The notes under the pieces were generated by a model that was not told the DNA's origin, made no database searches, and worked only from the letters and a program-made list of their open reading frames with translations. Shown piece after piece: positions 4,761 through 25,917 of a stretch of 25,917 bases of DNA. Each line of letters opens with the position of its first letter. The stretch's first letter is position 1. Position numbers and translations under genes: made by a program. The DNA is from a virus. Location: IMG/VR virus record IMGVR_UViG_3300009159_000276, positions 1-25,917 of that record; one strand, 5' to 3'.

Positions 4761-6162
4761 CGGTCACAAAGTCGTTGACTTTGCCCGCACCTTCTTGCAT
4801 GTCAGCAAAGGTGTTCGCGCCGGTCAACCTCTGATTCTTACCAACTGGCAGGTCGCACTTCTTGATGCATTGTATGAGCGTCGTGATGATGGGTTGTTGC
4901 GGTATCGTCGCAGCCTGATCGGAATGGGAAGGAAGGGAGGCAAGTCGCTTCTCGGTTCGGTGATTGCGCTCTACGGTCTGATCGAAGGTGAGCCTGGTGC
5001 CGAGGTTTATTCGGCAGCGGGTGACAGACAGCAGGCACGAGTTGTGTTCAACGAGGCGAAGTGGCAGATCAGTCAGTCGCCTGCGTTGTCGGGTGTGTGC
5101 AAGGTGTATCGCGATGTTGTTGAGGTTCCTTCGACTGGTGCGATCTATCGTGTGCTATCCAGTGACGCAAAACTTCAGCAAGGTCTAAACGCATCAACCG
5201 TGATATTCGATGAGGCTCATATTCAGCCCAACGAAGAATTATTCAATGCACTCACGTTAGGTTCTGGTGCGCGTAAAGATCCAAACTTTGTCGCAATCAG
5301 CACCGCTGGGTACGACTTGGATTCTCTTTGCGGACGTCTGTACAACTATGGCAAGCGAGTCGTATCTGGTGATCAGGTTGACGAGCGGTTCGGATTCTGG
5401 TGGTGGGAAGCACCAGCCGATTGTGAAGTCTCGGATCGTGATGCTTGGGCTGCTGCGAATCCAAACTTGGCTGAAGGACTTCTTGACATGGAAGACATGG
5501 AGATCTCAATGATGCAGACAGCCGAGGTTGCGTTTCGCAGGTATCGCTTGAATCAGTGGGTTCGCACAGATGGCGAGAGTTGGTTACCGAAGGGCGGGTG
5601 GGAGTTGTGTCGGAGCGAAGATGAACTTGATCCGAACATACCTGTGTTCGTCGGCATTGACATGGCGTTAAAGCATGACTCGATCGCGGTCGTTGTTGCG
5701 CAACCGCAGGAGTCTGGTCGGATTGTTGTTCGTGCGAAGATCTGGCATCCTGATGGTGGTGTGATGGATGTGGCCGCAGTCGAGCAACACATCCGTGAAC
5801 TTGGTCGTGAGTTCACGGTGCAAGAGTTCGCTTATGACCCAGCGTTCTTTCAGCGTTCGGCTGAAGCGATGTCTGATGAAGGGTTCACGATGGTTGAGTT
5901 CTCGCAGTCGACTGCGCGTATGGTGCCTGCTTGCGGAACTTTGTACGAGATGATTGTGAATCAGAAGATTGCGCATGACGGCAATCCTGTGTTCGCCGAT
6001 CAGGTGTTGTCGGCTGCGCAACGGTCAACCGATATGGGTTGGCGATTATCGAAAGGTAAGTCGAAACGCAAGATTGATGCTGCGATAGCATTGGCTATGG
6101 CTGTTGATCGTGCGACGAGAAGAGTCGAGAGTGTTCAGCAACCAGGGTTCTTCAATGTTTAG
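4693..6162 (+). CDS. terL: Terminase large subunit (ATPase and nuclease)
   Basis: The packaging motor that pumps DNA into the prohead and cuts the concatemer. The N-terminal ATPase shows a phage-type Walker A GMGRKGGKS at residues 77-85, Walker B VIFDEAH at 170-176 with catalytic Glu174, and the coupling motif ISTAG at 202-206. The C-terminal RNase H-like nuclease begins with FVGIDMALKHDS (319-330), with D323 as the first metal ligand; further acidic residues lie in the last third. The 489 aa length is normal. The start at 4693 is backed by AAGGGTGG a few bases upstream. The gene is more G+T rich on the + strand than the replication gene. Confidence 0.96.
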   Translation: MSLTHTDKGTPTWSTPKLYSRSDGHKVVDFARTFLHVSKGVRAGQPLILTNWQVALLDALYERRDDGLLRYRRSLIGMGRKGGKSLLGSVIALYGLIEGEPGAEVYSAAGDRQQARVVFNEAKWQISQSPALSGVCKVYRDVVEVPSTGAIYRVLSSDAKLQQGLNASTVIFDEAHIQPNEELFNALTLGSGARKDPNFVAISTAGYDLDSLCGRLYNYGKRVVSGDQVDERFGFWWWEAPADCEVSDRDAWAAANPNLAEGLLDMEDMEISMMQTAEVAFRRYRLNQWVRTDGESWLPKGGWELCRSEDELDPNIPVFVGIDMALKHDSIAVVVAQPQESGRIVVRAKIWHPDGGVMDVAAVEQHIRELGREFTVQEFAYDPAFFQRSAEAMSDEGFTMVEFSQSTARMVPACGTLYEMIVNQKIAHDGNPVFADQVLSAAQRSTDMGWRLSKGKSKRKIDAAIALAMAVDRATRRVESVQQPGFFNV

Positions 6163-19652: not shown

Positions 19653-20366
19653 ATGTTTGAAGTCGTCGGGTTCCCATCGGTCAAGTCCATCTACCCAAAG
19701 ACCATCGCCGAATCGTGGATGGAGTTTGCATCTATGCTCGGCAACCACCAAGAACGAGCAAACAAGTCTGACGGTTCGCTGTACTCGCCAGTCACCTACC
19801 GTGAACACACGACTCGTGGCAATCGCAATGTGTCGCACATCTGGGCATTGGTCGCCGACCTTGACGGTGAAGCATTTGAGAATGCTGATCTCGGATCGTA
19901 TATACACTTTGCGTACACGACCTGGTCGCATCGTGAAGACAATCCGCACTGGCACGTTGTCATCCCGTTTGAGCAGGCTGTGCCGGTACAGAACTGGGAA
20001 GAAGTTTGGTACGAGACACATGAGCGTCTTCGTCTCAAAGGCGACCCAGCAACCAAAGACCCAGCCCGTATCTTCTATCTGCCACAGCACGAAGCTGGCC
20101 AAGCATTCCGTACACATCATTCAGGTTGGCGATTCCTTGACCCGACGATCACCGATATTGCAGCACCGACACGCACATTCTCTACACCAAACATTCGCAC
20201 TACTCGTCAACCTCGTCGTGGTAATCCGATGCGATGTGTTCTTGATCCGAAGTGGTGGTCTGCTCCGATTGATATGTCGCAGTATGACGGGATGACACAA
20301 CAAGAGATTCACAAAGACATGCAACGCGAGTGGGCGGAACTGCGTAAACGGATGCTCGCTGACTGA
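19653..20366 (+). CDS. Archaeo-eukaryotic primase (AEP)-like domain protein inserted among tail genes
   Basis: A 237 aa protein with AEP-type features. The strand ALVADLDGE (65-73) carries D69-x-D71. YIHFAYTTWSH (83-93) and HWHVVIP (99-105) supply the His strand. TKDPARIFYLP (134-144) supplies the third acidic position (D136). This layout matches primase-polymerase domains of plasmid and phage replication proteins, where the segment 'DPA-K-DPAR-FYLP' is typical. No helicase follows. The C-terminal third is basic and Trp-rich. GGAGG lies nine bases before ATG 19653. Its place between a tail component and the tape measure is unusual and suggests a recently acquired moron. A priming role is inferred; a repurposed nucleic-acid-binding function is possible. 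Confidence 0.72.
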   Translation: MFEVVGFPSVKSIYPKTIAESWMEFASMLGNHQERANKSDGSLYSPVTYREHTTRGNRNVSHIWALVADLDGEAFENADLGSYIHFAYTTWSHREDNPHWHVVIPFEQAVPVQNWEEVWYETHERLRLKGDPATKDPARIFYLPQHEAGQAFRTHHSGWRFLDPTITDIAAPTRTFSTPNIRTTRQPRRGNPMRCVLDPKWWSAPIDMSQYDGMTQQEIHKDMQREWAELRKRMLAD

Positions 20367-23941: not shown

Positions 23942-24150
23942 ACATGGCTGGCGCAGGATATCGTACATTTCAATCGGGAGAAGTCCTCACTTCGACCAAC
24001 GTACAGACGTACTTGATGGATCAAGCTGTGCAGGTTTATTCTGGCACAGCAGCACGATCATCCGCAGTACCATCACCATCAACAGGCATGGTCGCCTATT
24101 CGACTGCAACAGGTCTACAAGTGTTCAACGGATCAGCATGGGTTGCTGCT
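23732..24150 (+). repeat. Tandem duplication of the tail-tip base module
   Basis: Copy 1 (23732-23938) and copy 2 (23944-24150) encode 69-residue segments that differ at 10 positions. Both start MAGAGYRTF and share the run GMVAYSTATGLQVFNGS. The copies are only five bases apart, which favours local duplication rather than two separate acquisitions. Confidence 0.85.
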
Positions 24151-24897
24151 GGTGGCGGGTATGGCGTGGCGACCGGAGGTGCATCAACCGCGATCACTGT
24201 AGGCGGAATAAATTACACTCTTTTAACTTTTAACAGCGACAGCAATCTTGTTGTTTCTACTGCAGGTTTGTTTGATGTTTTGCTTGTTGGTGGTGGAGCA
24301 GGGTCAGGCACAAATACTGGTGACGGAACCGGAGGCGGCGGCGCAGGGCAGTTAGTTGGTTTGCCAGCAACAGGTCTTGCAACAATTTTTCTTCCTGCTT
24401 CGACAGTTGCAGTCGATGTCGGCGCGGGCGGTGCGATAAATAGTTCAGGTCTTGGTTCAAACATTGGCAATTTTATTTCGGCTGCAGGTGGCGGACACGG
24501 TGGCTCAAATGATTCGACTGGTGGCGGTGGCGTTTCAGTTCGGCGCGGACAAAACGGCGGATCCGGTGGTGGCGGTGCGTTTTCTAGTGCGGTCGGCGGT
24601 TCGGCCGTCGGTTCGTTCGGTGGCAACGCAGGCGGAACAGCCGGATCCGGGACAGGCGGCGGAGCCGGAGGAGGAGGATCATCGGCTGTCGGTGCGAACG
24701 GAGTTGTCAACACGGTTGGCGCAGGCGGAGCAGGAAACGACATAACAGGATTTACAGGAACATCAGCCACAAAATGCGTGGGCGGAGCAGGCACAAACGG
24801 AGCAGGCGGCGGCGCAGCGGGCGCGGCCAACACCGGAAATGGCGGAGCAAACAACACAGGCGGCAGCGGGATCGTGCTAGTGAGATTTAAGGTCTGA
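23944..24897 (+). CDS. Tail-tip adhesin: duplicated base module plus glycine-rich domain (317 aa)
   Basis: Residues 1-67 repeat the previous gene (59 of 69 residues identical). Then GGGYGVATGGASTAITVGGINYT leads into a beta region and a long glycine-rich stretch (about 115-310) with many GGGGAG, GGSGGGG and GGAGGGG runs, closing with GSGIVLVRF. Such glycine-rich domains occur in phage tail adhesins and may fold as packed polyglycine-II helices whose loops touch the receptor. The ending with a strand and short basic tail is typical. It is two bases behind the first copy and has no strong ribosome site, so it probably depends on coupled translation. Confidence 0.85.
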   Translation: MAGAGYRTFQSGEVLTSTNVQTYLMDQAVQVYSGTAARSSAVPSPSTGMVAYSTATGLQVFNGSAWVAAGGGYGVATGGASTAITVGGINYTLLTFNSDSNLVVSTAGLFDVLLVGGGAGSGTNTGDGTGGGGAGQLVGLPATGLATIFLPASTVAVDVGAGGAINSSGLGSNIGNFISAAGGGHGGSNDSTGGGGVSVRRGQNGGSGGGGAFSSAVGGSAVGSFGGNAGGTAGSGTGGGAGGGGSSAVGANGVVNTVGAGGAGNDITGFTGTSATKCVGGAGTNGAGGGAAGAANTGNGGANNTGGSGIVLVRFKV

Positions 24898-24898
24898 T

Positions 24899-25213
24899 AT
24901 GGAAGCACAATACTTTGCACAAATAAACGAAAACAATGAAGTCATTACAGTTCATTGTGTAACAGCCGAATTTATGGCAGCAAACCCTGACCGCTACACA
25001 GGCACTTGGGTAGAAACATTTTACGACACCGTAGGCAAAACTTATGCTGGCATAGATTACGAATATCTAGAATCTGAAAAAGACTTTCGACGTCCACAAC
25101 CATATCCTTCGTGGACCTGGTCAAACAAAACTTGGAACGCACCAACACCGAAGCCTTCGACTGGTGGACCATATAGTTGGAGTGAAGAAGATCTTGAGTG
25201 GGTCGCCGTCTAA
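24899..25213 (+). CDS. Fibre accessory protein, aquatic-phage type (104 aa)
   Basis: The start is one base behind the adhesin stop. The protein is Trp/Tyr-rich: YFAQINENNEVITVHCVTAE, TGTWVETFYDT, KTYAGIDYEYL, RRPQPYPSWTWSNKTWNAPTP and SWSEEDLEWVAV. This ladder of a 'YAGIGYxYD'-like segment, 'PxPYPSW', and a final W-V end is widespread in cyanophage and pelagiphage tail proteins of unknown exact role, often next to fibre genes. It probably forms or assembles part of the tail fibre. Its presence here indicates exchange with other aquatic phage groups. The next gene starts inside its last codons. Confidence 0.8.
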   Translation: MEAQYFAQINENNEVITVHCVTAEFMAANPDRYTGTWVETFYDTVGKTYAGIDYEYLESEKDFRRPQPYPSWTWSNKTWNAPTPKPSTGGPYSWSEEDLEWVAV

Positions 25214-25917
25214 CAAGGTGGCTGATTCCGCTACCAGCAATCCTGTTCTCGATCTGGCCGACTACGGTTCAAGCCGAACCGATACCTGGATTGAACACGA
25301 CCTACTACACGATTGACGAGATCCCGCCAGTCCAGTCGACTGATGAATATCCTGTCTGCGGTACCGAAGTCGAGAACAACATCAACCGCAGTTATGACGG
25401 CGAACCATACGAAGATTGCACAGGCGATCTGTTCATGGTTCACATGACCGGCTACATCACGATTCCTGAACACGACACGATTGAGTTCATGTTGGCTCAC
25501 GATGACGGCGGTGAGATAACTATTGGTGACAACACGTTTGGTGGCTGGTGGGATCAGGGTTGTTCGTGGAGTGTGTCAGATCAATTAGAACTGAACGCCG
25601 AAAGTGTGCCGCTCGAATTGTGGATGTACGAGAACGGTGGCGCATCCTGCATACTTCTCGCTTGGAACATTGATGATGAAGGCTGGGCGATGGTCCCAGA
25701 CTCCGCGTTCACTACTACAAGTAGCCCAACCACCACAACAACAACCACGACCACGACAACCACAAGCACGTTGCCAGAAACAACAACAACAACTTCAACC
25801 ACAACCACGACTTCATCTACAACAACCCTTCCACCAGAAACGACCACAACGACTTCGACAACTCTTGCACCAACAACCACGCAAACGACAACAACAACGT
25901 CAACGACGACCATCCCA
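25198..25917 (+). CDS. Secreted PA14-like domain protein with Thr-rich stalk, 3' end missing
   Basis: GTG 25198 follows GAAGAAG about eight bases upstream, and the frame stays open for 240 codons to the window end. Residues 1-26 form a classic signal peptide: basic MGRRLTRW, hydrophobic LIPLPAILFSIWP, and cleavage likely after VQA (26). Residues about 50-165 resemble a PA14 domain: strands TGYITIPEHDTIEFML, the HDDGGEITIGDN motif (101-112, compare the sDDGsrLyIDG core), and PLELWMYENGGASCILLAW (138-156). Four Cys (54, 74, 122, 151) could form two disulfides, consistent with export. From about 172 it is almost pure Thr/Ser with PE and LP breaks, a mucin-like stalk. PA14 domains bind carbohydrate. 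An anchor or second domain may lie beyond the edge. It is exceptional in a tail cluster. Confidence 0.75.
   Translation, partial: MGRRLTRWLIPLPAILFSIWPTTVQAEPIPGLNTTYYTIDEIPPVQSTDEYPVCGTEVENNINRSYDGEPYEDCTGDLFMVHMTGYITIPEHDTIEFMLAHDDGGEITIGDNTFGGWWDQGCSWSVSDQLELNAESVPLELWMYENGGASCILLAWNIDDEGWAMVPDSAFTTTSSPTTTTTTTTTTTTSTLPETTTTTSTTTTTSSTTTLPPETTTTTSTTLAPTTTQTTTTTSTTTIP
25726..25917 (+). repeat. ACN-triplet low-complexity tract encoding the Thr stalk
   Basis: Runs of ACA, ACC and ACG triplets are interrupted by CCAGAA-type Pro/Glu codons. Synonymous codons are mixed, so it is not a pure microsatellite, yet it is prone to length change. The open frame on the opposite strand here is an artefact of this tract. 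Confidence 0.8.

Follow-up and report, generated by a model that had tools for sequence, protein, structure and literature searches.

The window (the whole stretch of DNA analysed) is an entire IMG/VR record of 25,917 bp, apparently a fragment. As portal, head-protease and tape-measure-like genes lie upstream of its fibre/adhesin end, the end of the window was taken to be the end of the head-tail gene cluster. The last ORF, of 240 aa, has no stop codon and encodes the beginning of a putative adhesin. The features of this region are as follows.

23944..24897, + strand: glycine-rich fibre gene (PF21722)
24899..25213, + strand: 104-aa tail-region ORF upstream of the adhesin gene (PHROG 14370/7759, unknown function)
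25198..25917, + strand: putative adhesin gene with a GTG start; 240 of about 500 codons are present, the 3' part being lost at the contig end
25198..25275, + strand: signal peptide, residues 1-26 (MGRRLTRWLIPLPAILFSIWPTTVQA), from a rule-based test with background control and from conservation
25285..25677, + strand: PA14 domain, residues 30-160, from Pfam PF07691 (E 1.1e-7) and fold matches
25501..25512, + strand: DDGG, residues 102-105, aligning with the calcium/sugar DcisD motif of MpPA14
25711..25917, + strand: first part of a Thr/Ser-rich stalk, the rest lying beyond the contig end

A scan of IMG/VR yielded 193 close relatives, the best 80 of which were 71-90% identical to the window protein. 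Loci of the scan overlap, so the counts given here refer to distinct sequences and should not be read as numbers of independent lineages. Among the 80, 57 were complete, with lengths of about 445-550 aa; the remaining 23 were cut as in the window, mostly within the stalk. The simplest explanation for breaks at this place is that the low complexity of the stalk disturbs assembly. An earlier note on this DNA had regarded the truncated GTG frame as a real gene interrupted by the end of the contig, and the conserved relatives bear this out on both counts. The start of the adhesin gene overlaps the 104-aa ORF by 16 nt, and the same overlap was found in L009, L016 and L028; translational coupling of the two is likely. 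The overlapped gene had been described earlier as a fibre gene. This has to be corrected, the glycine-rich fibre gene being situated one gene earlier. It may be mentioned that an ORF amid the tail genes of the window (19653-20366) matched a DNA primase/helicase PHROG (phrog_9765, E 3.6e-14), an odd location for a replication gene. Also, L012 and L070 turned out to be one 41-kb contig (IMGVR_UViG_3300042556_000844) with differing adhesin copies at both ends, whose identities to the window are 82% and 73%; these are either tandem paralogues across a circular join or the result of a chimeric contig.

The start codon was GTG in 65 of the 80 relatives and ATG in 14, one sequence being cut at its 5' end. 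Residues R7, W8, L9, I10, P13 and A26 were invariant in 37 relatives. Hence, GTG is the right start, as the earlier note had it, and not a codon downstream. Signal peptides and membrane segments were called by simple rules of hydropathy and motif, with a control on background genes. The N-terminus of the window protein, MGRRLTRWLIPLPAILFSIWPTTVQA followed by EP, passed the signal-peptide rule, and so did all 56 relatives tested, compared with 34 of the 733 remaining genes (at least 100 aa) in the same loci and none of the 26 other genes of the window. The proposed signal peptide on the GTG frame was thus upheld. It is of the AxA type, ending in VQA before EP, with the first Cys of the protein at residue 54, and it is retained in relatives that have diverged in sequence and in those with unrelated heads.

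Pfam PF07691 recognized the PA14 domain over residues 30-160, its score of 32.2 bits exceeding the cutoff of 24. An AlphaFold model of the head, built on 37 relatives (pLDDT 79.7), matched the PA14 domain of RsgI3 (Z 17.5), the sugar-binding domain of MpPA14/MpAFP (Z about 15) and yeast Flo1/Flo5/Epa1 (Z 12-13), in agreement with the domain assignment made earlier. The four cysteines (54, 74, 122 and 151) and the DDGG motif (D102-D103-G104-G105), both pointed out in the earlier note, were invariant in the 37 relatives. In the alignment, D102-D103 fall on Asp110-Asp111 of MpPA14; in that lectin, this DcisD pair binds calcium and contacts the sugar (PMC8092209). In loop 11, Gln156-Gly157 of MpPA14 correspond to Asn146-Gly147 of the window protein. 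Asp159, with which MpPA14 makes its third contact to the sugar, is matched by Ala149, at a position that varies in the adhesin family; by our own reading of the alignments, MhPA14, which binds sugar, has Ala there too. The head has the lectin-type fold and the DcisD residues, but not the third contact. It would bind a glycan, probably with calcium. No relative of the PA14 head was found in INPHARED. BFVD holds entries from uncultured Caudovirales phages named 'PA14 domain containing protein', the heads of which are 17-30% identical to the model.

The Thr/Ser/Pro stalk had a median length of 145 residues in 122 proteins; in complete relatives it goes on past the point where the window ends. As first thought, the stalk is real. 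Next in these relatives comes an acidic helical domain, which is conserved and gave a good AlphaFold model (pLDDT 84), but for which no convincing match was obtained in the PDB (best Foldseek E about 0.1). The proteins end in a tail of the form P-x-G-S-x-x-P-V-x-x-R-R, a hydrophobic stretch and a basic end (RRR). The hydrophobic stretch is short and moderately hydrophobic in the closest relatives, the best 17-residue mean being 1.31 for L007; for L202, it was 2.49. No LPXTG/sortase motif was found in the complete relatives, and L007 gave no Pfam anchor match. As the motif is absent, the adhesin is not an LPXTG protein. Of the membrane anchor and the sortase-like signal that the earlier note proposed to look for beyond the contig end, only the former has a counterpart, as a tail resembling a membrane anchor. 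A second exported-type protein, in L233 (6700-8184; IMGVR_UViG_3300023115_000065), has an Ig-like region, a TTTEAP stalk and an LPSTG-hydrophobic-RRK end that scored 15.6 bits with the LPXTG anchor model, just below the cutoff of 15.9. From its sequence, this would be another surface protein encoded by the phage, independent of the adhesin and anchored in the wall.

Directly after the stop codon of the adhesin gene, mostly with an overlap of 1-4 nt, lies a gene for a protein of about 55-62 aa in which two stretches are hydrophobic and a TLSG motif is invariant (PHROG 29041, function unknown). This partner was present in 97 of 97 distinct loci of complete relatives with enough downstream DNA (57 by seed search, 39 by reading the remaining loci, and one as a fusion). 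To limit circularity, IMG/VR was also scanned in reverse, with the partner alone. The C-terminal domain of the adhesin was encoded upstream in all 63 distinct hits, directly so in 62; in L224, the adhesin ends 211 nt upstream of the partner. The fusion occurs in Actinomycetia phage DSL-LC01 from Dishui Lake (PMC10611076), the only relative in INPHARED. Its protein WJZ48438.1 (944 aa) has a signal peptide, beta domains, stalks, the helical tail and, at the C-terminus, the partner; the C-terminal domain is shared with the adhesins, while the head is different. The fused part matched PHROG 29041 (E 1.8e-5) and was 36.5% identical to the stand-alone partner over 52 aa. This fusion is the strongest evidence that adhesin and partner may act as one membrane-anchored unit. 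Charge patterns suggest that both ends of the partner would be inside the cell, with the adhesin tail reaching the same side.

Across the loci, the signal peptide, stalk and C-terminal tail stay constant while the head varies. Most loci have the PA14 head. PA14 is combined with FN3 in L095 and L206, and an FN3-like head stands alone in L105; L202 has a beta head plus FN3, L093 another beta head, L135 a short Trp/Cys-rich head, and L233 and L237 longer composites. Of these assignments, Pfam confirmed the PA14 domains of L095 and L206 and, with scores above the cutoff, the fn3 domains of L202 and L206; the remaining heads were described by eye. When covariation was examined over 42 loci, the backbone genes co-varied tightly (rho 0.91-0.93) and the PA14 head was partly decoupled from them (rho 0.43-0.54). 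The value for the head and the fibre region was 0.54. With the whole region, the head/fibre test gave a partial rho of 0.47, which came down to about 0.2 when the region was split and near-duplicates were left out. Co-evolution of fibre and head was consequently set aside as proof of a shared receptor; the signal is no more than suggestive and can be accounted for by physical linkage. The partner gene and the swapped heads make the observation larger than the earlier note, which foresaw neither.

The probable hosts are actinobacteria. Many loci contain WhiB-type genes, the closest match of TerL was to Pontimonas phage phiPsal1 (38%), and the predicted host of DSL-LC01 is Actinomycetia. No cellular or prophage copies were found in the genome contigs scanned with the PA14 head or the C-terminal domain, so the host was not placed below 'actinobacterium'. 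The adhesin gene is co-oriented with late genes, which suggests late expression; this would be late for classical exclusion. Some neighbouring genes may be recorded here. A sulfotransferase gene (PF13469, E 3.8e-12) lies between the fibre and adhesin genes in L007 (7112-7780), and could act in modifying surface glycans; by eye, L017 and L036 have similar ORFs. Downstream of the lysis genes, L016 (11131-11703) encodes an exported-type protein of about 180-220 aa, with counterparts in L007, L009, L028, L036 and L049 and a conserved HGDxSWLPSL motif, for which no family match was found.

Among known proteins, MpPA14 (6X7J and others) and MhPA14 (6M8M), both adhesin lectins, share with the window head the fold (Z about 15), the DcisD aspartates and the Gly that follows in loop 11. 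They belong to giant RTX adhesins secreted by the type I route, whereas the phage protein is of the Sec type and has four invariant cysteines. Yeast Flo1/Flo5/Epa1 likewise consist of a signal peptide, an N-terminal PA14-type lectin, a Ser/Thr-rich stalk and a membrane end, a likeness that is likely convergent; in place of their GPI anchor, the phage adhesin has a helical domain and a separate two-helix membrane partner. Llp of T5 is a superinfection-exclusion surface lipoprotein made by a phage. So is Ltp of TP-J34 (PMC3952083). Like these, the adhesin is phage-encoded, of the exported type and apparently meant for display on the host, and the purpose is possibly shared, so that by analogy it may work as they do. 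It is not a member of their class, having no lipobox and no Cys before residue 54; where those have a lipobox Cys, its signal peptide is of the AxA type, and it differs further in its stalk, its exchangeable heads and its partner gene. A comparison with defence systems gave chance-level matches only. The surveys of freshwater phages and metagenomes that were read did not mention PA14, lectin or signal peptide, and nothing relevant was found in the literature on phage-encoded PA14 surface proteins. No paired system or function was found described for the adhesin and its partner, the DSL-LC01 and BFVD entries being annotated only as hypothetical or by domain.

The earlier suggestion that the infected cell displays an exported protein was strengthened by the signal peptide, the stalk, the anchor-like tail and the obligate membrane partner of the relatives, and it is highly probable from these features that the product is an adhesin of this kind. 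The window gene would then be the first, here truncated, of two genes that make up a surface-display cassette. The adhesin would be secreted by Sec; jointly with the small partner, its tail would cross or dock to the membrane, and the stalk would bring the head out across the cell wall. There the head, probably with calcium, would bind a glycan of the infected cell itself or of cells nearby. With the glycan receptor occupied, siblings, rivals and the phage's own progeny would be kept from adsorbing to infected cells and their debris, and head swapping would track changing surface glycans. Receptor occupation is favoured because the surface-binding heads change on a frame that is kept and because the gene adjoins fibre genes; as the purpose, however, occupancy or exclusion is proposed tentatively. 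The explanation as a whole, comprising the two-gene cassette, the glycan-binding head and receptor occupation, is the best one we have, and we give it an even chance of being right.

A displayed adhesin could instead bind in trans, making infected cells stick to other host cells or to particles, or holding released virions near new hosts, as yeast flocculins do for cells. The flocculin-like architecture and the similarity of the head model to Flo1/Flo5/Epa1 are in keeping with such aggregation or capture, which we consider rather unlikely; the data do not separate cis from trans. Less likely is a factor for lysis or release, in which head and partner would act with the adjacent holin and endolysin, for example with the partner being or regulating a holin and the head binding the wall or surface layer. 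The genes downstream of the pair in many small phages encode a holin-like protein (PHROG 443, E 5e-4), an endolysin of the VanY type (PF02557, E 1.9e-14) and a small membrane protein, and the partner has two helices, as do class II holins. But the small phages already have a separate holin-like gene, and head swapping is not expected of a lysis regulator. Moreover, a different set of genes, of fibre type and not for lysis, comes after the pair in L209, L212, L223 and L231 (contigs of 44 to 97 kb, around position 5001), and the genes after the fused protein of DSL-LC01 do not look like lysis genes, as assessed by reading and partly by searches. The link to lysis is therefore not essential, and this role, also raised in the earlier note, is weakened. 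It is very improbable that the product is an ordinary fibre or tail protein of the virion, its N-terminal hydrophobic stretch not being used for export. The gene is indeed co-oriented and overlapping within a tail-fibre cluster, and fibres commonly carry glycan-binding domains; yet the signal peptide is kept despite strong divergence and unrelated heads, the cysteines are invariant, and the membrane partner is obligate and in one case fused. Our order of preference is thus receptor occupation, aggregation or capture, lysis, and a plain virion protein.

Binding proteins of this type are as a rule produced by phages for the virion alone, which makes the proposed display unusual. The pair may represent a widespread modular platform for host-surface display, on which phages swap binding heads like tail-fibre tips and so remodel what the infected cell binds, a proposal we hold with slightly less than even confidence; that the platform is previously undescribed is a claim we make with the same reserve. 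If this is true, common aquatic actinophages would make the infected cell wear a receptor-binding protein, in addition to those borne by the particle. The loss of progeny to debris and to co-infection, the gluing of cells and the role of PHROG 29041 would then become testable, and the constant frame with exchangeable heads would be a natural display scaffold.
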